Positions 27,907 to 39,571 of a DNA stretch of 64,000 nucleotides are shown one piece after another; positions within the stretch are counted from its first letter, which is position 1, and each line of letters begins with the position of its first letter. The translations under genes were made by a program, and so were the position numbers. The stretch comes from Erwinia persicina. Lineage in GTDB: Bacteria; Pseudomonadota; Gammaproteobacteria; Enterobacterales; Enterobacteriaceae. Location: positions 1 through 64,000 of the forward strand of contig NZ_JACYMO010000006.1 of NCBI RefSeq assembly GCF_014838825.1. The letters are read 5' to 3'. The notes beneath the pieces were generated by a model, which worked only from the letters and a program-made list of their open reading frames with translations, did not search any database and was not told the origin of the DNA.

Positions 27907-29039
27907 CAGAACGCTTCCCCAACCTGGAAATAGAACCCCGTGCTTTTCTCGCCTACGCCGTAGTCAAAGCGCAGATTCATGCTTTTTTTAATCTCAAAGC
28001 GATAACCGACGCCGACGGTAGGAAGCCAGTGGCCGTCAGCGACATTGTGGACGTCAGAAGACATACTGCCTGCACCAACCCAGGCGACAACACCGTGCCG
28101 CCAGCTCAGTTTTTTACGCAGTTCAAGCTGGGTCGTCACAATATTACGATCGCGGTAACGCCCTTCGTAATAACCCCGCAGGTGATGGCTGTCCCCTAAA
28201 AAGCCGGTCATTGTCCAGGGGACATTGCCCCCGGCGAACCGGCCGTACAGCTCCCACGCCAGCAGGGTGGTAGGGGTCAGGGGATGATATAGATCGTACT
28301 GCGTATCCCAGACGTCAAAGCGGTTATCGCTGCCTAAGGTCGGAGTATATCGGGTATAGCTGATATTGAGCAGCTGTCCGCGCGAAGGATTGATGGTGAC
28401 ATCCCGCGTGTCATAGCTGAACAACAGGCTGGCCCCGATGTTCATCTCACTTAAGCGCACCGGGTGCTGAAAGAAGCTTCCTGCTGCTTTTTTTTCTAAC
28501 CCGGTCGCTTTCTGGTCGTCGAAGGAACCGCCCACCCCGACGTAGGTATTCGCCCCCAGCCGGTAGAGGATTTTGGGCGTCAGGGTAACGGAGCGGGCGT
28601 TATAGGACTGCTTTCCCCGCTGATGTCGCCCGGCCTGGTAACCGACGCCCCAGTAATCCAGCGGACGATGGCTCAGGTCCCCGTTGAGAAAAAAACGCCA
28701 CCGATCCTGATGAAAAAAGGTGTAGTTTTCGTAACCCACACCAAACGCGCCCGTTGAGCTACCAAAGCCGGTGAGGGATAACGACGACAGCGGTGAAGAC
28801 TGCGGACGATCGTCGGGATGGTAAAACCCGACGGCAGCAACACCGATGCCCACGCCCAGCTCCGGGGTATAAAAGGGTCCCGGCACCACCCCCCAGTCGA
28901 TACCTTTATGCAAATCGGCCTCCTGCGTGCTGAACCTGCTCAGGTATCTGTCCACCGTCGGCCTGCTTAACAGCAGGGTGCCCTGGGACAGTGACGGAAT
29001 GAGAAACAAAGTCATTAATAGCCCAATGTTAGCCCACAT
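27906..29039 (-). CDS. Omp85-like (BamA/TamA C-terminal domain) outer-membrane barrel
   Basis: 377 residues. A signal peptide-like N-terminus is followed by a sequence of alternating aromatic strands typical of an outer-membrane barrel. Features of the surface-antigen/Omp85 barrel are visible: FSYDTRDVTINPSRGQLLNI, the conserved loop-6 motif as LRGYYEGRYRDRN, and the final strand ending in GEAF with C-terminal Phe. No POTRA domains are present, so it is a barrel-only Omp85 relative. It begins 2 bases after the upstream outer-membrane gene. Role unknown; barrel-only members are proposed to translocate or anchor partner proteins. Confidence 0.75.
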   Translation of the reverse strand: MWANIGLLMTLFLIPSLSQGTLLLSRPTVDRYLSRFSTQEADLHKGIDWGVVPGPFYTPELGVGIGVAAVGFYHPDDRPQSSPLSSLSLTGFGSSTGAFGVGYENYTFFHQDRWRFFLNGDLSHRPLDYWGVGYQAGRHQRGKQSYNARSVTLTPKILYRLGANTYVGVGGSFDDQKATGLEKKAAGSFFQHPVRLSEMNIGASLLFSYDTRDVTINPSRGQLLNISYTRYTPTLGSDNRFDVWDTQYDLYHPLTPTTLLAWELYGRFAGGNVPWTMTGFLGDSHHLRGYYEGRYRDRNIVTTQLELRKKLSWRHGVVAWVGAGSMSSDVHNVADGHWLPTVGVGYRFEIKKSMNLRFDYGVGEKSTGFYFQVGEAF

Positions 29040-29041
29040 GT

Positions 29042-30088
29042 TTAGAAACGAAACTCGCCACCAACCATTACGCTGTTACGTTTTTCAAAGCCCACCTCGG
29101 TAATCACGTTGAAGTTACGCGTAATTTCGTACTGCCCGCCGACCAGAATATTCCAGGGAGACTGCAAATGCTGCTTAACGCGAAAGCGGCCCTGGTCGTC
29201 TTTATTGACGAAGTTCACCAGCTGTACCAGGTTTTGCGGCATGTTCAGATTACCCAGGCTGCCTCTGAAGTCCTGAGAGACATCCTGATACATACTGCCG
29301 ACCCACACGCTGGCGTGCGATACCGGGATGGAGAAGCGTTCAAATCCTGGCACGGTGAAGCGATAACCGACGCGCGGCGTGAAGGTGAAAGCCGACGTAC
29401 TGCCATCAAGAATGTCGAAGTCTGTACGGGTATAGTTGAAATCCAGCGTGCCGAACCAGTTGTGATACCCATAGGCCAGCGTTGTGCCGCCGCCGTAGGT
29501 GGTTCCCTTAAATTTCAGCGTAAAATTGAGGTTCTTGAGCTGCGGGGGGCAGGCACCCACCGCGCAGACGGAGACATCAGAGACCGAGCTCCCTTTTGTA
29601 TGGCCAATAATGCCGTAGACATTCATAAAGGGAAATAACCAGGTATCCAGCCTGGCATTCTCGGTTTTGGACCTTTCCCGGGTATGGCCGACGTTAATAT
29701 TAAACAGATCGTTGCCAATCGGGATCGGTGCCATGCCGGGAAACAGTGAAGGGATTTTAAGGTTAGAGAAATTGATACTGTTAACCTTAATATTCTGACG
29801 CATGTTCATGTAATTAAAACCAATCCCATAGGGATCGGGTAAGTCATAACCGCGGCGGCGTATCTCTTTACCAAAAAAGGGCAGAGGGCCAGTGGTTTCA
29901 CCAAACAGATCGGGTGAACGTTGTGGTTTTTGATCGTCCAGGACCATCAGAGGGTCGGTATCTCCATGATAATCCAGCGAGTCAGGTATCATCGCATTAG
30001 GCACACCCGCAAAGGCCGGCACCAGCGGTGCAGAGCAGAGCAGGAAACCGGCAATAATATTGACTTTAGTGTTTGGCTGTTTCTTCAT
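29042..30088 (-). CDS. Predicted outer-membrane beta-barrel, first gene of the cassette
   Basis: 348-residue precursor with signal peptide (IIAGFLLCSAPLVPAFAG). The mature chain alternates hydrophobic and polar residues in strands and ends with GGEFRF, a typical barrel terminal Phe. Recognisable strands include GYHNWFGTLDFNYTRTDF and FTFTPRVGYRFTVPG; a cysteine pair in VCAVGACPP may form a disulfide in an external loop. Similar proteins are sometimes labelled virulence proteins, without firm evidence. It heads a tightly packed three-gene unit with the Omp85-like and DUF4056 genes. Confidence 0.65.
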   Translation of the reverse strand: MKKQPNTKVNIIAGFLLCSAPLVPAFAGVPNAMIPDSLDYHGDTDPLMVLDDQKPQRSPDLFGETTGPLPFFGKEIRRRGYDLPDPYGIGFNYMNMRQNIKVNSINFSNLKIPSLFPGMAPIPIGNDLFNINVGHTRERSKTENARLDTWLFPFMNVYGIIGHTKGSSVSDVSVCAVGACPPQLKNLNFTLKFKGTTYGGGTTLAYGYHNWFGTLDFNYTRTDFDILDGSTSAFTFTPRVGYRFTVPGFERFSIPVSHASVWVGSMYQDVSQDFRGSLGNLNMPQNLVQLVNFVNKDDQGRFRVKQHLQSPWNILVGGQYEITRNFNVITEVGFEKRNSVMVGGEFRF

Positions 30089-30406
30089 TTATTACAATCC
30101 ATGTATGTGCTGGGAAGGGATCGCAGGAGCATAGCGACAGTCCTCTCCCTTTTCATTCCAGAAAATGCGATATTTCCGCGGCAGGCATGGCTTTTTATTA
30201 ATTGTAATTCTTTATGTTTTATTAATCACTGGCTGGCAGTTTAATTACCGGGATAAGTCTGGCAATTAACCGGTTTGAGTAACGCGGAGAAGGCAATGTT
30301 TTTACATTTAATGCTTGCTATGACACAGATAAAATAAATAAGGGATCATCACTCGCGGGAAGGGAAGAGAGCAGAACGCCCTGGTACAGGACGTTCTGGC
30401 GCGTCA
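30089..30406. other. 318-base AT-rich intergenic region
   Basis: Upstream side of the outer-membrane cassette and downstream side of the DUF1090 gene. The part at 30180-30350 is AT-rich and probably contains the cassette promoter, but no clear operator was found. A strong hairpin at 30372-30398 lies at its right edge. No gene is supported. Confidence 0.5.
30372..30398 (-). terminator. Hairpin downstream of the DUF1090 gene
   Basis: CAGAACGCCCTG-GTA-CAGGACGTTCTG pairs over 12 bases with one G-U wobble-type mismatch. It lies 9 bases after the DUF1090 stop. The T tract expected of an intrinsic terminator is weak, so it may instead protect the transcript end. Confidence 0.5.
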
Positions 30407-30793
30407 TTAGCGGGTTAATTCTGCTTCAGCCTCGCGAAGTTCTTCGCGGGCTTCATCCCGTTTTTTCGTTTTTTTATCGATTTTTTCCTGTCTGCCATCG
30501 GCTTTGGCTTCGGTCAGCTCCTGCTCACGCTCCTGCACTTTACGCTGTTTTTCTGCCACCTTTGCCTGACGCTCTTTCAGCAGGCTGCTGTCTGTGCAGT
30601 GGTCGGTGACTTCCTTCAGCGCTTTCTTCAGGCCTGCCACGCGGTGCGGATTACTCTGCTGTTCCGCGTACTGGATTTCCTGCTGGATACTTTGCTGTTT
30701 AGCCGCGCAGCCGGTCAGCGCGGCGCTGGCCTGCACGGAAAAAAAACAGCTGGCGATAAGGGTTGAGCTAAGAATAATCAGGTGCTTTTTCAT
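30407..30793 (-). CDS. DUF1090 periplasmic protein (YqjC-like)
   Basis: 128 residues. A signal peptide ends VQASAALTG; the mature chain starts with GCAAKQQSIQQEIQYAEQQ and continues as a highly charged coiled coil (KVAEKQRKVQEREQELTEAK). Cysteines in GCAA and DHCTD match the two-cysteine pattern of E. coli YqjC, a DUF1090 protein of unknown function. In E. coli yqjC lies in a different region, so I leave the symbol blank. It has its own promoter region beside the RIO kinase terminator. Confidence 0.8.
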   Translation of the reverse strand: MKKHLIILSSTLIASCFFSVQASAALTGCAAKQQSIQQEIQYAEQQSNPHRVAGLKKALKEVTDHCTDSSLLKERQAKVAEKQRKVQEREQELTEAKADGRQEKIDKKTKKRDEAREELREAEAELTR

Positions 30794-30906
30794 TGTTATC
30801 CTAAATTTGCGGTGTGGTGACCGCTATTATACCTGGCGTTCTTAAGAGATCCTTATCACCACACATTGTTTGTGCCATTGCTGCGGGAAGTGCCCGGGAC
30901 GCAGGC

Positions 30907-30937
30907 AAAAAAAAGCCCACAGGTGAACCTGCGGGCT
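30907..30937 (-). terminator. Terminator downstream of the RIO-family kinase gene
   Basis: Ten-base stem AGCCCGCAGG / CCTGTGGGCT on the minus strand with a tetraloop, then eight T. Confidence 0.85.
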
Positions 30938-30960
30938 GTGAGCGCTGCCGATGCTGGCTG

Positions 30961-31821
30961 TCAGTCGTCTTCGTCGTCCCGCTCTTTGCTGGCGCGCTGG
31001 CGGTCATAAAATTCATCTTCGGCGGCAATGATCTCATCCATCAGGGAGCCCATATCCACTTCATGTGTCTCTTCAACAAACAGGCCGGTGAGCGCCACTT
31101 CCGGGGTGAGTTTGCCGTCTTCATACAGCATCCATATCTCTTTGGCATAGCGCGTCTTCAGGAGCTGCGGCGCGTACTGGCCATAGTAGGCGGTGATGTT
31201 ATTCACATCACGTTCAAACATGGATTCTGCCAGGTTGTTGGCCGCCGCATCAACAGCCTGCGGCAGATCGATAATCACCGGGCCCCGGGCATCGAGCAGC
31301 ACGTTAAACTCGGATAAATCGCCATGCACGATGCCGGCGCAGAGCATGCGCACGATATTACGGATCATGATATTGAAATCAGTAACGGCATTCTCTTCCG
31401 TCAGGATCACATCGCTGAGGCGGGGTGCAACCGCGCCTTCAGCATCGGTGACCAGCTCCATCAGCAGCACGCCCTCTACGCAGAGATAGGGTTGCGGCAC
31501 GCGCACCCCGGCGTTATCCAGACGGAACAGCGCATCGACCTCGGCCATCTGCCAGGACTCTTCCTGCTGCTTGCGCCCGAAGCGTGAGCCTTTTTTCATC
31601 GCGCGGGAGTCACGCGTGTTGCGGACTTTACGTCCTTCCTGATACTGCACGGCCTGCTTGAAGCTGCGCTGCGTGGCCTCTTTATACACTTTGGCACACT
31701 GGATCTTGTCACCGCACAGCACCGTGTAAACGTCAGCTTCTTTACCGCTTTTCAGGCGCTGAAGCACGTCGTCTATCAGGCCGTCATCGACCAGGGGTTG
31801 GATTCGTTTTGGGATTTTCAT
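30961..31821 (-). CDS. RIO-family serine/threonine protein kinase
   Basis: 286 residues with a RIO1-like kinase domain. Visible motifs: nucleotide loop region SGKEADVYTVL with the ATP-binding lysine in CAKVYK (about 35-47), the catalytic loop GIVHGDLSEFNVLL (Asp about 162) and the metal-binding loop VIIDLPQAVD in place of DFG. RIO kinases in archaea and eukaryotes act in small-subunit maturation; bacterial members, such as those in Pseudomonas, are less understood. The C-terminal tail is acidic (ERDDEDD). E. coli K-12 lacks it. It appears to belong to the host side of the island boundary, but this is not certain. Confidence 0.85.
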   Translation of the reverse strand: MKIPKRIQPLVDDGLIDDVLQRLKSGKEADVYTVLCGDKIQCAKVYKEATQRSFKQAVQYQEGRKVRNTRDSRAMKKGSRFGRKQQEESWQMAEVDALFRLDNAGVRVPQPYLCVEGVLLMELVTDAEGAVAPRLSDVILTEENAVTDFNIMIRNIVRMLCAGIVHGDLSEFNVLLDARGPVIIDLPQAVDAAANNLAESMFERDVNNITAYYGQYAPQLLKTRYAKEIWMLYEDGKLTPEVALTGLFVEETHEVDMGSLMDEIIAAEDEFYDRQRASKERDDEDD

Positions 31822-32138
31822 GCGGCTTTATACCTTATTTCGGCCGCTTTTCGTATCAATAACAAAGACGGCGACACAGAACAAATGGCAGAGGCTGAAC
31901 AATGAGGTCATTTTACCGAAAAAAAGGCGGTTTGTGGGGTTGGCGGCGTCGATGAGTGACATTTTTCAGTGACAGGCCGATCGGACAGGGGACAGCAGCA
32001 TGAACTGGGGCAGGGAAGGGGCGTGTCAGTACCGGCAGGAGCCGACTCGCGGCTGTTATTTTGCACGATGGTTATGGGGTAACCGGCTGAACAAGCGGGT
32101 GTATAGAAATAAGGACCGATTTCTGACTCCCGTGAACA
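31822..32138. other. Left flank of the accessory island, no recognisable gene
   Basis: From the kinase start to the first insertion-sequence fragment. Open frames on both strands are short or compositionally odd and I recognise none of them. A stretch near 31929 loosely resembles the 3' end of ssrA but is too diverged to call an attachment site. Confidence 0.5.
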
Positions 32139-32222
32139 CCGACGGACAATGCGACGGTGGAATCCTTCAGCGGCAGGCTGTGGCAGCAGTGTCTGAACGA
32201 GAACGGGTTCATATGGGGGCGG
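32139..32222 (+). mobile_element. Fragment of an IS3-family orfB (transposase C-terminal part)
   Basis: Plus-strand codons read PTDNATVESFSGRLWQQCLNEN, which matches the end of the DDE catalytic core of IS3-family transposases (usual form DNATVESFNGRLRQECLNENWF; the glutamate is the last catalytic acid). An in-frame stop lies just upstream and similarity ends near 32205. It seems truncated on its right by the next fragment. A dead remnant. Confidence 0.6.
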
Positions 32223-32230
32223 ATGCACGG

Positions 32231-32660
32231 GGTGACCTGCTCCCCGTTGATTAACACACGGCGATTTTAGTAATGTCTTCATAAGCCACATGAGCATATC
32301 CCCATGAAGAAGCGTTTTTCCGACGAACAGATCATCAGTATCCTCCGCGAGGCTGAAGCCGGGGTTTCTGCCCGTGAGCTCTGCCGTAAGCACGCCATTT
32401 CCGACGCCACCTTTTACACCTGGCGCAAGAAGTATGGCGGTATGTAGGTGCCCGAAGTTAACACCTGAAGTCGCTTGAGGAAGAGAACGCCAGACTCAAC
32501 AAGCTGCCTGCCGAAGCCATGCTGGATAAGGAGGCACTTCATGTGGCTCTGGGGCGAAAGTACTGACGACTGGCCAGAAGCGGGAAGCCGTTGAGCTTAT
32601 GTGTGATGCGACCGGTCTGTCGCAACGTCATGCCTGCAGGCTTACAGGGTTGTCCCTGTC
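32231..32660 (+). mobile_element. Truncated, mutated IS3-family (IS407-like) element: orfA and start of orfB
   Basis: orfA starts at ATG 32304 and reads MKKRFSDEQIISILREAEAG, then SARELCRKHAISDATFYTWR, a helix-turn-helix typical of IS407-group OrfA. It is stopped by TAG at 32445-32447, where relatives have a glutamate codon, and a small deletion shifts the frame near 32460. Downstream, VALGRKY (end of orfA) and REAVELMCDATGLSQRHACR (start of orfB) are recognisable. The sequence then leaves the element near 32660. TGACCTGCTCCCCGTTGAT at 32231-32249 may be its left inverted repeat. Confidence 0.75.
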
Positions 32661-32810
32661 GATAGGATCAATTATTTAGGGACTAGCTTTCGTCGAGATA
32701 CTTCACGTAGTCGTATGCCTTTCAGAATAGTCACTTTAATATAAAAGGAAAAGTAGGGGCTGTTGATTTATATTTACAGGTGTGGAATATATGGATAAGT
32801 TAAATATAAG

Positions 32811-32832
32811 TGGCCTTGTAATCACAAGGCCA
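32811..32832 (-). terminator. Hairpin downstream of the SIR2-STAND gene
   Basis: Perfect nine-base stem TGGCCTTGT / ACAAGGCCA with a tetraloop, followed on the minus strand by CTTATATTT. Probable terminator of the single-gene unit; 14 bases after the stop codon. The interval 32661-32810 is AT-rich and holds no gene I can recognise. Confidence 0.7.
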
Positions 32833-32846
32833 TTTTAGATTATAAA

Positions 32847-35360
32847 TTAAATGCTAGAACTGTTTATTTTTTCCAATACTTGACTTAACGAGTCCTTGCA
32901 ATGCCGTATGGAGTGTTCACCATAATCTTCAACGTTAACACGCTCTGCCTGTGCAAGCATGTAAACACAGCACTCTTTGAAATTTAACCTGTTTTGTTTT
33001 GAAAGGGATGAGTACTTTTGATTATAAATTTTTTCATATTCTTTTACTTGTCTGTATCGGTGCTTTCCATTATCGCTGCTTTGTAATAAATTATGAGCCC
33101 TATAGAAAAATGACCATATGGCTGCATCGTGCTGTTCTTTTAATGCTTTTTTAATATAGAGTCTTGCTTGCTGAGTATCTATGCTGGATGTATCGTATTC
33201 TTTTTTTTCTTGTTTTTTTCTGGCTATCTTATAGGCAGTGTTTAATTTTTCCTGAGCAGGATCTAATAGGTCATTAGCTATTTCCGCCATAGCTAATTGC
33301 AGCCAGTAATGAGATTCTTTTTTTAACCATCCTGCTTTTAATATTAGATTGTCATAATAATTAAACAAAGATCGTTTTTTACCATTCATTTCTTTTAATA
33401 AATTATCGACATTACTAAATCTCATTATTTCTTTGATGAGGTTTTTCTTTAGATTTACTATTTCAAAATCAACTTTGTTACTATTTTTAGTCCATTCCCT
33501 TTCAACTATTTCTACTGTTTTTAGAAATAGTTGAATCTTGTATTCATTTTGGAATAAATATTTTAACGTCACGCGACAGAATATGCTTGATTTTTCTGTG
33601 AACCCATTGATATTACGGTTGGAGTATATTAGGGAAATATTTTTATTTCTGCTGAATTTAAGCGAATCTACATCATTGTTTTCTGATAGTGATTTAATTA
33701 TGTTGCTATTTATGGGGATGTTCAAATATTTAAACAATAATATGAAGAATAATATTTTTTTATAAGATGGATTATTCATGACTTCATTTGTATATTCTCC
33801 AATTTTATTTATTATGTTTTCAGAAGAAAATAAATCGAGTAGTAACTCACTTATCTGATTGTTGAAGTTTTTTTCAACCAATCGCCTTTTTGATTCTAGT
33901 GATAGAGTTACACGTTCACTTCCCCAGAAGTTAAGCATATCGATTAAATCTATTAGATAATCTACTTCTGACTTCACTTCTTCTATATACTGAGCTTGTG
34001 ATAGTTCGTCAATATTAATAACATCGAAATCGATGCCAAAAAAATCAGTTCTATCTAATTCTATACTTCTTATGCTTCCTATTAATATTATATTTTTATT
34101 TTGTAACATCGCAAAATCGGAAATTAATGATGTGTTATTATTTAAATCATCACAAATAACAACAGAGAATTCATTCTTATTTATAATCTTGTCAAAATCA
34201 GCAAGGTATTTTGATGGGGTGATTTCATCTTGTTCTCCCGGGGTGTATGTTTTTATTTTTTCCTTTTTTAATAAATGAGATATAAGCTGTTCTAGTAACA
34301 CACTTTTCCCGTTACCAATTTCTCCTGTAATTATAACGTTCTTTTTTTCTTTTATTTTTGCTATACATTCATCTATTACCCTCTCTCTAGGGATGAAATA
34401 ATTTTTCTCTCCAAGTAAGTATTGTGTATAATCTTTTTGTATTTTTCTGTTGTCTATTTTACCAAATAAGAAGAAGTTATGGATGTCTAATTTTTCGATT
34501 TCTAAATCATCATTTTCATAATACTCACCATCAACTTCAATTAAATGCTCAGGTTTGTTGTCTATAATATCAGATACAAGGTTATTATATTTATCTTTTA
34601 TTAGTTTTGCAAAACCTTCGGTCCCAGTGCTTAATACATGGCCATAAATTTTAAGCTTGAATAGATCCTTTTCTTTCGCAGTGGGTGATGTGATGATAAA
34701 AGTTTTTTCTTTAAATGATTCATTAGATTTTAATAGTTTCTTTATCATGTCATCATATAAAGAATAACCTACAAATACAATTGCGGATGCTGAATCGAAA
34801 TCTTTTGCAAGTAATTTAAACCAATACGAATCATCAAAATTATTTAGAACATAAGATATATCGCTTAGTGCAAATTCTTTTGTTAATGTTTTTTTACTTA
34901 AAATACCCATATCTCCATTGATATGGACGCAAATATTGCCATCTCTAAACATCTCTGAGTCAGTTAATGGGTTTACTGTCCTTAGTTTTTTGCCTACTTC
35001 ATTACATGCTAATTCAAACCCAAAGTCATAATTGGTCGTGTAAGTTCGCTTCCAATTTATTTTTGCGATTTCTTTATGATAATCAGAAACCTCATTTATA
35101 ATAAATTCATCTTCTAATGCTGCAATTAGTTGGTTTTCTTTTTCACTTTCAATATAGTAGTCTACGATATCTTTAAGAGGTATTACTCCATCATCAGAAG
35201 ATATATCCACCCCCCCCATTAAAAGCTTCGAAAGATCATCCACCCCTTTAGGTTGTTTGGACTTTATATTTTTCATGCCATAAGAAAAACCGGCACCAGT
35301 GAATAAAACTGGTTTGCCAAACTTCATCTTATCAATTAGTAAATTTATAGTTTTTTCCAT
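32847..35360 (-). CDS. SIR2-STAND protein, probable anti-phage NTPase (Avs5-like architecture)
   Basis: 837 residues. The N-terminal domain (about 1-260) has SIR2-type NAD-binding marks: TGAGFS (21-26), TTNYD (108-112), VHINGD (145-150) and VGYSLYDD (197-204). A linker ends FIPRERV (322-328), then a STAND P-loop NTPase follows: Walker A GEIGNGKS (346-353), Walker B VVICDD (400-405) and a sensor-like IGSIRS (427-432). Residues about 500-640 look like a winged-helix/helical region, and 640-837 like helical TPR-type repeats (HYWLQLAMAEIA, 684-695). Known SIR2-STAND proteins sense phage components through the C-terminus and deplete NAD. Substrate and trigger here are inferred. The gene is strikingly AT-rich beside its neighbours, a sign of transfer. 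Start supported by GAGGG 6 bases upstream. Confidence 0.8.
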   Translation of the reverse strand: MEKTINLLIDKMKFGKPVLFTGAGFSYGMKNIKSKQPKGVDDLSKLLMGGVDISSDDGVIPLKDIVDYYIESEKENQLIAALEDEFIINEVSDYHKEIAKINWKRTYTTNYDFGFELACNEVGKKLRTVNPLTDSEMFRDGNICVHINGDMGILSKKTLTKEFALSDISYVLNNFDDSYWFKLLAKDFDSASAIVFVGYSLYDDMIKKLLKSNESFKEKTFIITSPTAKEKDLFKLKIYGHVLSTGTEGFAKLIKDKYNNLVSDIIDNKPEHLIEVDGEYYENDDLEIEKLDIHNFFLFGKIDNRKIQKDYTQYLLGEKNYFIPRERVIDECIAKIKEKKNVIITGEIGNGKSVLLEQLISHLLKKEKIKTYTPGEQDEITPSKYLADFDKIINKNEFSVVICDDLNNNTSLISDFAMLQNKNIILIGSIRSIELDRTDFFGIDFDVINIDELSQAQYIEEVKSEVDYLIDLIDMLNFWGSERVTLSLESKRRLVEKNFNNQISELLLDLFSSENIINKIGEYTNEVMNNPSYKKILFFILLFKYLNIPINSNIIKSLSENNDVDSLKFSRNKNISLIYSNRNINGFTEKSSIFCRVTLKYLFQNEYKIQLFLKTVEIVEREWTKNSNKVDFEIVNLKKNLIKEIMRFSNVDNLLKEMNGKKRSLFNYYDNLILKAGWLKKESHYWLQLAMAEIANDLLDPAQEKLNTAYKIARKKQEKKEYDTSSIDTQQARLYIKKALKEQHDAAIWSFFYRAHNLLQSSDNGKHRYRQVKEYEKIYNQKYSSLSKQNRLNFKECCVYMLAQAERVNVEDYGEHSIRHCKDSLSQVLEKINSSSI

Positions 35361-35376
35361 TGTATTCCCTCTTTAT

Positions 35377-35391
35377 CCAAGTAAAACTTGG
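35377..35391. promoter_or_regulatory. Perfect inverted repeat before the SIR2-STAND gene
   Basis: CCAAGT-AAA-ACTTGG lies 17-31 bases upstream of the start codon, just before the ribosome site. It could be an operator for a repressor or a small leader hairpin limiting translation. A TATTTT-like -10 element lies further upstream near 35420. Confidence 0.4.
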
Positions 35392-35580
35392 GCGTATGTA
35401 AAAGACTTTTCTTGATAAAATAGTGGCTAACGATTTGTTTGCCTTTAGAATATCAAAGATACCAAATTAAGTAAGGTAAGTACAAATCAGCTTCTGAAAA
35501 AATGTTTTTCAGGTATCCTCATCGCCGCCTCCAGCTCACTACACCCAAATACCCGCAATCCGCATTCGCTCTGCTTTTTC
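35392..35580. other. AT-rich promoter region of the SIR2-STAND gene and island filler
   Basis: AT-rich up to about 35510, then an abrupt change to balanced base composition near 35515. That change marks the right edge of the transferred AT-rich block. No open frame is recognised. Confidence 0.4.
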
Positions 35581-35934
35581 CTATTTCTCCATAATCCCTA
35601 CCGCCAGCCACAGGGCAGGAGAGATCACGCGTAACTTTGCCTCAACACGCGGCGAAAGCACCACTCCTTCGGTATACTTCCCTAGTGTTTTTGTGGCGCT
35701 GAGCGGGAGTTTGTGCTATTCCGGCGTCAGAGACTTAAAGCGGATGATCTGTTCCACAACAAAACGTGCCAGCAGCGTGTTTACGGTGATGATATGCGCC
35801 TTGTAGGTGATATTGACGATGGATCGTCCCAAGTGCTGGTCACGTTCGCCCCCAAACCCGGAGCAGAACAGATCCTCTCCTCCAATAGTGGACACGCGAC
35901 TAATACAATCACGGCAAAGCCGAATGATTACTTT
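35581..35934 (-). pseudogene. Unidentified gene remnant split by an amber codon
   Basis: A minus-strand frame is open from 35934 to a TAG at 35581-35583 except for one internal TAG at 35716-35718. The upper part (72 codons) includes LCRDCISRVSTIGGED and NTLLARFVVEQIIRFKSLTP; the lower part (44 codons) includes KTLGKYTEGVVLSPRVEAKL and ISPALWLAVGIMEK. Both halves look like natural protein and are in one frame, so a sense codon (perhaps CAG for Gln) probably became TAG. I do not recognise the family. The 5' end is lost against an IS fragment. Confidence 0.5.
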
Positions 35935-35945
35935 TCATTTTATGC

Positions 35946-36481
35946 CCATAGTGGACTGCCCCTACACACGTAGACAAATTCTGTCCCCACTACAAGGCCT
36001 GTTCAAAGTCCTTTGTACTGAACCCGCCGATGTAGCTGTGGCACCGAGACCGTCTATAGAAGGCATCAATGTAATCGAAGATATCGGCCCGAGCGACATT
36101 CAGTACCCGACACATCGTCATCACACCCCGTACAGTGCAGTTTTCATTGATAAATCGGTACTTCAGTAGGGCTCCGCAGCAAAGTACCGCGCGCCCTTTT
36201 TCAGGATATCGCGTTCTTCTTCGGTGCGTTTTACCTGCGCCTGTAGTGTCAGGATCTTACTCTTGGTTACCAGTCAATTCCGGGCATGCTGTTCGCCGTT
36301 ATCAGGTATCAGGCTTGATAGTCCGTAGCCACTTGTAGAGGCTGTGCGCGTAAACGCCTAGACGGTCACATAATTCGGTAACGGAATAACCGCGTTCCGT
36401 TATCTGACGAATGGCTTCTTTATTAAAGTCGGGTATAAATCGTGGTGTGCCCATTCGCTCCTCCTGTGCTCAAACTAAAGG
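35946..36481 (-). mobile_element. Internally deleted IS3-family element
   Basis: Minus strand. orfA starts at 36454 after GAGGAG and reads MGTPRFIPDFNKEAIRQITE, then a helix-turn-helix (SVTELCDRLGVYAHSLYKWL) typical of IS3-family OrfA; it degrades after about 50 codons. Further on, the start of orfB (YRFINENCTVRGVMTMCRVL) is joined directly at about 36085 to its end (DIFDYIDAFYRRSRCHSYIG). The whole catalytic core is missing, so the element is dead. Possible right end CGTGTGTAGGGGCAGTCCAC near 35951-35970. Confidence 0.75.
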
Positions 36482-36525
36482 GCAGGAGCGTCGACCGTGG
36501 GCAATCCTTACAATGTCCGCTTCTC

Positions 36526-36589
36526 GCTCAAACCAGACTGTCAGATTCGATTGTGATCTACCTACAAAATCTGCAGAGCAGGTTTGAGC
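36526..36589. repeat. Short inverted repeat near the integrase 3' side
   Basis: GCTCAAACC at 36526-36534 and its exact complement GGTTTGAGC at 36581-36589 are separated by 46 bases; GCTCAAAC also occurs at 36468-36475. Could be leftover element ends or protein-binding sites; significance unclear. Confidence 0.3.
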
Positions 36590-36634
36590 ATATGCACTTT
36601 TTCCTTGGAAAAACTAACCAATCCTGCTAGAAAC

Positions 36635-37876
36635 TCAGACCACAAGTTTTAACTCTCCTCTTCCGTTTTCAACAATGCTCCCGCTGTCGGCATTGCTTAC
36701 GAAATCCCCCTACCACTGCATCATCGGCCGTCGCTGCTCAAGGTAGTCACTTCGGTTATATGCACGACGAACCTCATTCTTATCCACATGGGCAAGCGCT
36801 GCCTCAATAACATCAGGCGGAAATCCTTGCTCATTGAGGGCCGTACTAGCAATAGATCGCAGGCCATGGGAGACAAGCACACCACCAAAACCAGCACGTT
36901 TAAGTGCCGCGTTCACTGTTTGGCTATTCATAGACTGATTCGGCTTGATACGGCTTGGAAAAATGAATTCTCTATTACTACTCAAAGGCTTCATCATTTC
37001 CAGAATGGTAAGGGCTTCATCCGATAATGGAACCGTATGATCTCGGTTCATCTTCATGCGAGCTGCTGGGATTTTCCATTCTTTAGCATCAAAATCGATC
37101 TCATCCTACCGAGCTGCCGCCGCTTCAGCGGGGCGTGAGATAGTCAGAAGTTGCCACATGAACAAACATCGAGTAGGCAAAATAATGTTGGCATTTCTCA
37201 TTGTCTGCATCACTTGTGGTAACTGATCTGGGCGGATGCTAGGCATGTTCTTTTTCTGCGGTTTCTCAAAGGCTTTACCAATATTGATACTGGGAACTGC
37301 ATCAATCAGGCCCGTATTCTGGGCATAAATCATGGCTTCATTTATACGTTGGCAAAGGCGGCGGACAGGCTCTAACGCGCCCCTGGCCTGTACAGGTTGA
37401 ACGGTCTGAACCAATGTATGAGCTTTAATATCCGTAATATTGACCTTCCCAATCGCGGGGAAAACATCTCTTTCAAGTGAGCGCCAAATGTCATGAGCAT
37501 AGTCCTCTGTGACGCTGGCTTTCTTGACGTTCCACCAACGCTCGGCAACTAACATGAAAGTGTTGGTTTTAGCTTCAAGCGAACTGCGCAGTTGTTCTTG
37601 TTGATGCTCCTGAGGATCGATCTGTTTCGTCAGAAGAGAACGAGACTCTGCACGATAGTTTCGGGCATCAGCAAGGGTAACTGACGGGTAGGGGCCAATA
37701 CTCTTCTTTGCACGTTTCTTGGTGACAGGACGAATGTAGTGAAACTGCCATATTTTGCTGCCGGTGGATTTGATGAGTAGCTCAAGGCCATCGCCATCGT
37801 AGAGAACGTAGTCCGCTTCCTTGGGTTTGGCGGATTCGATTTCTTTGACGGATAAAGGTTTGGTTTGTCTTGCCAT
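36635..37876 (-). pseudogene. P4/CP4-57-type tyrosine integrase with two in-frame amber codons
   Basis: One minus-strand frame of 413 codons contains all parts of a P4-family integrase: N-terminal DUF4102-like arm (KPLSVKEIESAKPKEADYVL), SAM-like core-binding domain, and catalytic domain with HGLRSIAS (His-x-x-Arg) and nucleophile region VRRAYNRSDY. It is interrupted by TAG at 37106-37108, after AAAAR where relatives have Trp (WDEIDF), and again by TAG at 36710-36712, after MMQW where relatives have a second Trp. Reading continues cleanly through both. Two TGG-to-TAG changes would explain this. It borders ssrA, the usual target of this integrase class. Likely inactive. Confidence 0.85.
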
Positions 37877-37892
37877 TGCCGGGTTTCCATAG

Positions 37893-37949
37893 TTTTAGGC
37901 ACCTCAAAAACAATAATGCTTTATGAGGTGCCTAACAAGGTGCCTAAAA
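37893..37949. repeat. Three copies of AGGTGCCTA before the integrase start
   Basis: AGGTGCCTAAAA occurs inverted at 37893-37904 and direct at 37938-37949, and GAGGTGCCTA lies between at 37925-37934. Together they form an inverted pair plus a direct pair, 17-73 bases upstream of the integrase start and between it and ssrA. This arrangement suits arm-type integrase sites or an operator that autoregulates integrase, but the binding protein is not known. Confidence 0.55.
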
Positions 37950-38001
37950 GGTTCGGATTTAATTAGTTTGCTTCAGACTTCCCGGGACAAATCTCAGACA
38001 C

Positions 38002-38036
38002 AAAAAAACCCGCAAGGCTTACGCCTTGCGGGTTTT
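38002..38036 (-). terminator. Terminator of ssrA
   Basis: ACCCGCAAGGC-GTAA-GCCTTGCGGGT stem on the minus strand followed by seven T. Located 45 bases after the tmRNA 3' end, and similar in place and form to the E. coli ssrA terminator. Confidence 0.88.
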
Positions 38037-38080
38037 CAGGACTTCATCGAGTGGGTCTGGTAACCAATCGACCAAGAATT

Positions 38081-38444
38081 TGGTGGAGCTGGCGGGAGTT
38101 GAACCCGCGTCCAGAATTACTACACCGTCGGCACTACATGCTTAGTCTGTCTTTACATTCGCCGGTCAGCTGCGAACAGACACGCCACTGACAAACTAGC
38201 CTGATTGGTTTTAATGCTTCAACCCCAGGCCGGGTATCCACACGAGTTCTTTTAGGTTTGACCTCTCTTGAATCCCCGTCTTAAGAACGGAAGCTAGGGA
38301 GAGAGGGCTCTAAGCAGGTTATTAAGCTGCTAGTGCGTAGTTTTCGTCGTTTGCAACTATTTTTTTGCGGCTTTTAACGAGGCAAACCGCCCCTCGGCAT
38401 GCTCCTAGGGCTTCGCAAATCCTGTCGAATCCAGAATCAGCCCC
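38081..38444 (-). ncRNA. ssrA: Transfer-messenger RNA (tmRNA)
   Basis: 364-nucleotide tmRNA that rescues stalled ribosomes with SmpB. The 5' end GGGGCTGATTCTGGATTCGA and the 3' end GGGTTCAACTCCCGCCAGCT then CCACCA form the tRNA-Ala-like acceptor and T arm. The tag frame at 38322-38354 encodes ANDENYALAA then TAA, identical to the E. coli tag. Pseudoknot regions are recognisable by alignment with E. coli. The 3' end is intact, as expected after site-specific integration of an island that restores the gene end. Confidence 0.97.
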
Positions 38445-38458
38445 AAGTACTGTTTAGC

Positions 38459-38464
38459 AGTATA
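38459..38464 (-). promoter_or_regulatory. ssrA promoter -10 element
   Basis: TATACT on the minus strand, 15 bases before the mature 5' end, leaves room for the short 5' leader that RNase P removes. A clear -35 match was not seen. Confidence 0.55.
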
Positions 38465-38493
38465 TCAGAAAAACCTGTCGCTGTGCCAGTAGG

Positions 38494-38976
38494 TTAGCGA
38501 TTTGAGTGTTTCATAATACGTGCTTTGTCTAATTTCCACTCGCGATCTTTAATGTCATCGCGCTTGTCGTGCTCTCGCTTCCCTTTCGCCAGGCCAATTT
38601 TCAGCTTGGCCCAGGCATTTTTCCAGTACATCGACAGTGCCACGATGGTGTAACCATCACGATTGGCTTTACCAATCAGCGTGTCGAGCTCGCGTTTTTT
38701 CAGCAGCAGCTTGCGGCTGCGCGTCGGGTCGCAGACATAGTGCGATGAAGCCACGCTCAGCGGCTGGAAAGTTGACCCGAACAGGTAAGCTTCACCATCG
38801 CGCAGCATAATGTAGCTGTCGCTGATGTTGGCCTTACCGGCGCGGAGGGATTTGACTTCCCATCCCTGGAGCGAAAGCCCGGCTTCGAACTCATCTTCGA
38901 TGGAGTATTCGTGACGGGCGCGCTTGTTCATGGCAATGGTCGCGGAACCGGGTTTATGTGCTTTTTTCTTTGTCAT
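38494..38976 (-). CDS. smpB: SsrA-binding protein SmpB
   Basis: 160-residue partner of tmRNA that delivers it to stalled ribosomes. Starts [20 protein letters not shown] as in E. coli; contains the core [18 protein letters not shown] and the basic C-terminal tail ([17 protein letters not shown]) that enters the mRNA channel. A start at 39027 would add 17 residues not in the family; ATG 38976 is correct by alignment. ssrA lies directly downstream. Confidence 0.97.
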
Positions 38977-39136
38977 AGTGCCACTTAGTTTACATGAAGC
39001 CGTGATTAATGGCATCCCCTGTAACATCCTGGGCAGGGGAAACAGGTATTTTAGCAGATGGTTAGCAGGAGAGAATTTTTGTTTGATTGCCTGCGATGGT
39101 ATTATTACTGCGTTATAAAAAAAGACAGGAATGGAT

Positions 39137-39571
39137 ATGTCCCAGATTAGTCGTTCGGCGCTGGTGCCGTACAGTGCGGAACAAATGTTCCGCTTAGTGA
39201 ATGATGTCGACAGCTATCCGCAGTTTCTGCCGGGGTGTACCGGTAGCCGGGTGCTGGATGCCAGCGACGACCAGATGACCGCTGCGGTGGACGTCTCCAA
39301 AGCGGGGATCAGTAAAACCTTCGTGACGCGCAACACCCTGACGGATAATCAAAGCATCCATATGCAGCTGGTAGACGGGCCCTTTCGCAAGCTGACCGGC
39401 GGCTGGCGTTTCACCGCCCTCAGCGAAGATGCCTGTAAGGTAGAGCTGAATCTGGACTTTGAGTTTACCAATATGCTGGTTGAACTGGCCTTTGGTCGCA
39501 TCTTTAAAGAGCTGGCCAGCAGCATGGTGCAGGCATTTACCCAGCGCGCTAAAGAGGTCTACAGTGCCTGA
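39137..39571 (+). CDS. ratA: START-like ubiquinone/ribosome-associated protein RatA
   Basis: 144-residue coenzyme Q-binding START-domain protein of the COQ10 type. In E. coli it was reported as a toxin that blocks ribosomal subunit joining; a role in ubiquinone handling is also plausible. Conserved [19 protein letters not shown] and [23 protein letters not shown] 39137 is preferred to ATG 39131 because AGGA lies 6 bases before it and E. coli aligns from there. Overlaps ratB by 8 bases; divergent from smpB as in E. coli. Confidence 0.93.

Follow-up and report, generated by a model that had tools for sequence, protein, structure and literature searches.

The closest described relative of the gene analysed here is EfAvs5 of Escherichia fergusonii, whose filaments have reportedly been the subject of a study in Nat Commun (2025, 16:2408). 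The structure of this protein is deposited as PDB entry 9jap under the title "Helical structure of EfAvs5(SIR2-STAND)". For PaAvs5-1 of Pseudomonas aeruginosa, placed in clade 1 of the family while EfAvs5 is placed in clade 3, PMC12931631 describes NAD hydrolysis upon phage sensing or infection, and the loss of protection when the Asn, Walker A residues or C-terminal helices are mutated. According to the same text, the jumbo-phage protein JADA activates homologues from three Avs5 clades, and NG is roughly as frequent as HG at the SIR2 site of the Avs5 family; in PaAvs5-1 Asn outperforms His at this position, and its replacement by Ala or Gln abolishes protection. In addition, filament formation appears, according to PMC12700824, to be a prerequisite for Avs5 activity.

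We propose that the avs5-like gene listed in Table 1, found in a 64-kb stretch of Erwinia persicina DNA (hereafter the window), very probably encodes an Avs5 (AVAST type 5) immune receptor that is rare, branches deeply within the EfAvs5 clade, lies in a decayed island by ssrA and works through the steps set out below. An earlier, sequence-only reading of the locus had described a SIR2-STAND protein of the Avs5 type, and this assignment is borne out by the Pfam domains, by agreement with EfAvs5 over the full length in both sequence and fold, and by a tree anchored on an EfAvs5-like protein.

Table 1. Features of the avs5-like gene and of its surroundings, in window coordinates.
Feature	Position	Strand	Evidence
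avs5-like gene (SIR2-STAND-helical repeat)	32847..35360	-	ORF, ATG start, 837 aa; Pfam; 9jap match
SIR2 effector domain, residues 1-265	34566..35360	-	SIR2_2 (PF13289) 33.4 bits, cut-off 24.5, E 5.6e-8
G8 run in coding strand, codon 48, candidate slippage site (weak)	35210..35217	-	
N148-G149, NG replacing canonical catalytic HG	34914..34919	-	N 36/44, H 8/44, window protein counted
STAND NTPase domain, residues 323-460	33981..34394	-	nSTAND3 (PF20720) 33.5 bits, cut-off 27.2; nSTAND_NTPase5 34.2, cut-off 34
NTPase elements: Walker A GEIGNGKS 346-353, Walker B-like VVICDD 400-405, candidate arginine finger R431	within 33981..34394	-	
Helical C-terminus with repeat sensor (residues 460-837)	32850..33983	-	model pLDDT 91.9; EfAvs5 fold match; W686-x-Q688 invariant
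Candidate terminator hairpin, weak T-rich tail, directly past avs5-like stop	32811..32832	-	consensus scan only
IS3-family transposase remnant	35950..36512	.	HTH_Tnp_1 in ORF 36302-36454
IS3-family remnant holding IS1222 frameshift element	32216..32662	+	
Tyrosine integrase, split into two ORFs (37106-37876, 36710-37057)	36710..37876	-	Arm-DNA-bind_3, Phage_int_M, Phage_integrase
ssrA (tmRNA), presumed insertion target	38081..38444	-	
RIO kinase gene, chromosomal, far side of island	30961..31821	-	RIO1 139.4 bits

The gene is AT-rich, as had been stated, with a GC content of 29.7% against 54.1% for the 64-kb window, and its frame runs uninterrupted through 837 codons despite this composition and many A runs. 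In the profile search, the N-terminus scored above the cut-off of SIR2_2, and the central region above those of both nSTAND3 and nSTAND_NTPase5. The motifs named in the sequence-only reading are all there, namely GAGFS (residues 22-26), TTNYD (108-112, including N110), VHINGD (145-150) and GYSLYDD (198-204) in the SIR2 domain, together with the two NTPase motifs, and its numbering of N110 and K352, the latter within Walker A, is correct. The SIR2 site that it called complete-looking does therefore contain the expected motifs, but departs from the canonical site in carrying NG in place of HG. Similarly, of the terminator and palindromic leader attributed to the gene, the former finds a counterpart in the candidate hairpin and the latter in a short palindrome seen by eye at about 35377-35391, which, however, neither of the two closest relatives shows.

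When sequences of solved structures were searched with phmmer, 9jap was the sole full-length relative (residues 12-808, E 2.5e-74), the remaining six matches covering at most residues 11-219. A model of the whole protein, predicted as a monomer from the window protein and 43 relatives, reached a mean pLDDT of 86.7 and a pTM of 0.70, and its best structural match was again 9jap (Z 31.7, 784 residues aligned). The rmsd of 24.2 over this alignment indicates that the parts agree and that their arrangement differs. Specifically, the sensor modelled alone (pLDDT 91.9) superimposed on 9jap with a Z of 23.8 and an rmsd of 3.2 over 350 of its 378 residues. The AVAST5 filament 9nc9, which is the second Foldseek entry for the whole model, also follows 9jap in the case of the sensor (Z 14.0, rmsd 4.7, 253 residues), although it is more distant, with 10% identity in the sensor alignment; further helical-repeat proteins gave Z values of at most 11.8. 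Among the structures listed, the predicted fold of the C-terminal sensor is thus that of EfAvs5 and not a new one, although its binding surfaces may still differ. The suggestion that the sensor was the part most likely to be new did not survive this comparison: a new sensor at the fold level is not supported, given the 9jap match, and the sensor has diverged no more than the NTPase, their identities to an EfAvs5-like E. coli protein being 29% and 24%, respectively.

The SIR2 domain of the model also resembles those of DSR2, ThsA and KomC (Z of about 18-22), and deacylases are likewise found among its structural matches. The DSR2 chains match just positions 5-234 of the 805 of the profile, some of the structural alignments being longer at an rmsd above 14. 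As whole systems these proteins are different: a STAND NTPase is not known from DSR2, ThsA relies on a second messenger and a SLOG domain, and KomC, to judge from PDB entry titles, acts with KomB.

Residue conservation was counted in an alignment of the window protein with 43 proteins from the 77 genome loci (n=44). N110, D112, G149, D203, G351 and K352 are invariant in all 44 proteins, as are W686 and Q688, the W-x-Q of the repeat domain. R431 is kept in 43 of 44, and the acidic position 404 of the Walker B-like motif is D in 30, E in 13 and P in one. From its position, and not from an alignment, R431 would correspond to Arg438 of PMC12931631. The same text reports an invariant W-x-Q in the Avs5 repeat domain, represented by Trp675 and Gln677 in PaAvs5-1, and W686 and Q688, matched to these by motif only, appear to be alike in kind.

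By comparing the window protein with the two described receptors, we find that it shares with EfAvs5 the domain order, the fold part by part, the tree clade and the NG motif, which is visible in the 9jap sequence. It differs from EfAvs5 in that its identity, measured through the EfAvs5-like E. coli protein, is 24-33% by domain, and in sharing its own branch, described below, with just two other copies. With PaAvs5-1, as presented in PMC12931631, it has in common the SIR2-nSTAND3-repeat organisation, NG, Walker A and W-x-Q.

These likenesses suggest a working scheme in which the C-terminal helical repeat would bind a phage protein, after which the nucleotide-bound STAND domain would change state and, as the fold suggests, assemble an EfAvs5-like filament. 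In such an assembly the SIR2 domains would become activated and hydrolyse NAD+, a putative activity for which N110, D112 and N148 are present in the site. The resulting loss of NAD would then halt the phage, as published Avs5 work suggests. By analogy, both phage defence and NAD loss can be expected of the avs5-like protein; that its trigger might come from a jumbo phage is only a guess by kinship. The mechanism, the NG variant and the sensor fold have all been described already for relatives of this protein. What our analysis adds is a deep, nearly unsampled branch of the EfAvs5 clade, represented in the collections searched by three copies, one of them frame-broken, and useful for mapping the sensor surfaces that change with phage specificity. 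In addition, it places the gene at an insertion hot spot between ssrA and the RIO kinase gene, with contents that differ among the species compared.

The branch is made up of the window protein and its copies in Klebsiella oxytoca and Pantoea eucrina (SH-aLRT 100), its stem measuring 1.14 changes per column, and it falls inside a set of 29 rows (SH-aLRT 100) that contains the EfAvs5-like E. coli protein. The alignment of this anchor with 9jap covers 849 of 849 residues. The tree holds 88 rows, drawn from 77 genome loci and 14 viral-contig loci, and was built by a quick method with SH-aLRT and no bootstrap; its most distant rows may include proteins other than Avs5. Left out were the frame-broken L048, L057, L075 and L131, the short L076, L082 and L083, L127 and L134 as apparent duplicates, and also L085 and L138. 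The P. eucrina copy (L009) was entered as its 706-aa part alone.

The closest intact relative, BAS43841.1 of K. oxytoca plasmid pKO_JKo3_1, is 60% identical to the window protein over the whole length and is annotated merely as hypothetical. It differs in its setting, a conjugative plasmid on which IS102 transposase genes flank it on both sides. The P. eucrina copy, also 60% identical, is the closest chromosomal relative, and an A run in its first 125 codons is where the reading frame is interrupted. Its locus (L009 4104-12492) is a defence-island setting, with a subunit of a type I restriction system (1532 bits) nearby and a PifA-type KAP NTPase (262.6 bits). Between these two copies, dN is about 0.04 and dS 0.41-0.52 over 706 codons, which indicates that purifying selection has kept the lineage.

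The gene is rare. In the 36 other genomes of the genus no match was found at E 1e-10 (1/37 with the window's own), and in a sample of 392 genomes of the family, at E 1e-20, the two matches were the window's own and one genome with a 29% relative. A tblastn search of 50,697 phage records gave no match to the protein, and none of the E. coli genomes searched held near-identical DNA. PADLOC (PADLOC-DB 2.0.0) returned only mad8, at 19.2 bits, and no Avs-named family. We dropped this silence as evidence against Avs5, since the EfAvs5-like control was equally without an Avs-named call; surveys that use PADLOC-DB may therefore miss the clade.

Turning to the surroundings, IS3-family remnants lie on both sides of the gene, in agreement with its described position between dead IS fragments. 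The integrase reported beside ssrA is there in terms of tyrosine integrase domains and of the adjoining tmRNA, but it is split into two ORFs; a homologous integrase at L122, from a different species within the genus, is a single ORF of 406 aa. Rfam matches in 29000-39500 were the tmRNA and the IS1222 element. The smpB-ssrA region of P. eucrina is 83% identical to that of the window, a value inside the 81-98% range seen in the genus. In a genome of the same genus (G396), 65 bp separate the RIO-kinase flank from the ssrA flank and the alignments break at window positions 31902 and 37996, the insert in the window measuring about 6.1 kb. In a sister genome (G403), flanks 92% and 97% identical enclose 1030 bp of different sequence, and two more species carry different cargo at this site, one of them with a single-ORF homologous integrase. 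The ssrA-RIO interval (window 31903-37995; L120-L123) is thus an insertion hot spot with contents varying among the species compared. At this same hot spot in another species, two adjoining ORFs (192 and 321 aa) occupy L122 6278-7818.

A 23-base probe from the ssrA end, allowing at most three mismatches, found one match in the window, ssrA itself, and the best match to the ssrA end inside the island covers 17 of 30 bases, so that no far attachment copy was found. With a 14-base probe there were 26 loose matches, above the mean of 8.2 obtained from shuffles, and these were not taken as attachment sites.

With its split integrase and crowding IS remnants, the island may be decaying even though the avs5-like gene is open. 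These features, the presence of the gene in one of 37 genomes of the genus and the broken frame of the P. eucrina copy would also fit an Avs5-type receptor that has lost its function, either because it is an open frame left in a decaying island or because NG in place of HG makes it catalytically weak. We consider this quite improbable, given that all 837 codons are still open in spite of the AT-richness and the many A runs, that the catalytic and Walker residues are retained, that NG is active in PaAvs5-1 (PMC12931631) and that purifying selection acts on the sister pair formed by the K. oxytoca and P. eucrina copies. Less probable still is a SIR2 activity other than NAD hydrolysis, such as deacylation, or a non-phage role such as plasmid exclusion, with which the deacylases among the SIR2 folds and the conjugative plasmid of the K. 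oxytoca copy would be compatible, but against which stand the anti-phage SIR2 proteins (EfAvs5, DSR2, KomC, ThsA) as top whole-length and SIR2 matches, and the NAD hydrolysis demonstrated for PaAvs5-1 in PMC12931631.

Within the reading as a working Avs5 receptor, we also considered whether the G8 run could make this deep Avs5 lineage one whose immunity is switched by strand slippage, which we regard as unlikely. The gain or loss of one base at this run would end translation at codon 56 or 59; were the switch real, only a fraction of the cells would keep a costly NADase immunity active, and one could ask whether phase variation is maintained in suicidal immune genes. C runs at a like distance from the start occur in two other AT-rich relatives from separate branches, L013 (9935-12409) having C10 at codon 50 and the E. 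coli plasmid Avs5 group (L003 5947-8391) having C7 at codon 48, and the early frame break of the P. eucrina copy likewise falls at a homopolymer, the A run mentioned above. The C7 run showed no length variation in this group, 9 of 9 sequences having the same length, and no G/C run of at least 6 is found in the EfAvs5-like, Duffyella and K. oxytoca genes. A second copy of the window gene in which the length of G8 could vary was not found, and the length itself may reflect a homopolymer assembly error. As judged by titles and abstract openings, none of the papers listed in a literature search dealt with phase-variable AVAST systems.

The statistics of these runs point in different directions according to the set compared. 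The 80 Avs5-like ORFs of at least 2000 nt (195.5 kb) contain 2 G/C runs of at least 8 and the 577 control ORFs of at least 250 aa (769 kb) contain 6, which amounts to no overall enrichment. Among genes below 45% GC, 2 of 39 hold such a run against 0 of 78 controls, a difference that is not significant (Fisher p 0.11). G8 has 58 overlapping matches genome-wide, and in the window it occurs once against a shuffle mean of 2.5. Under a first-order Markov model of the avs5-like gene, a G/C run of 8 arose in 49 of 20000 simulations. In a shuffle of synonymous codons across the family's 45 AT-rich genes, the 3 observed runs of at least 7 at codons 30-65 compared with a mean of 0.37 and were reached in 1 of 200 shuffles. 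When the full set of 87 genes was used, the observed number was reached in 11 of 200; the codon range was picked after the runs were known, so that this test is exploratory.

The IncF Avs5 group of E. coli consists of sequences at least 99% alike, present in 9 of 5426 genomes. Its plasmid copies L139, L141, L142, L146 and L147 are split, shortened or unannotated, and L141 carries many scattered indels of a kind that resembles sequencing error.
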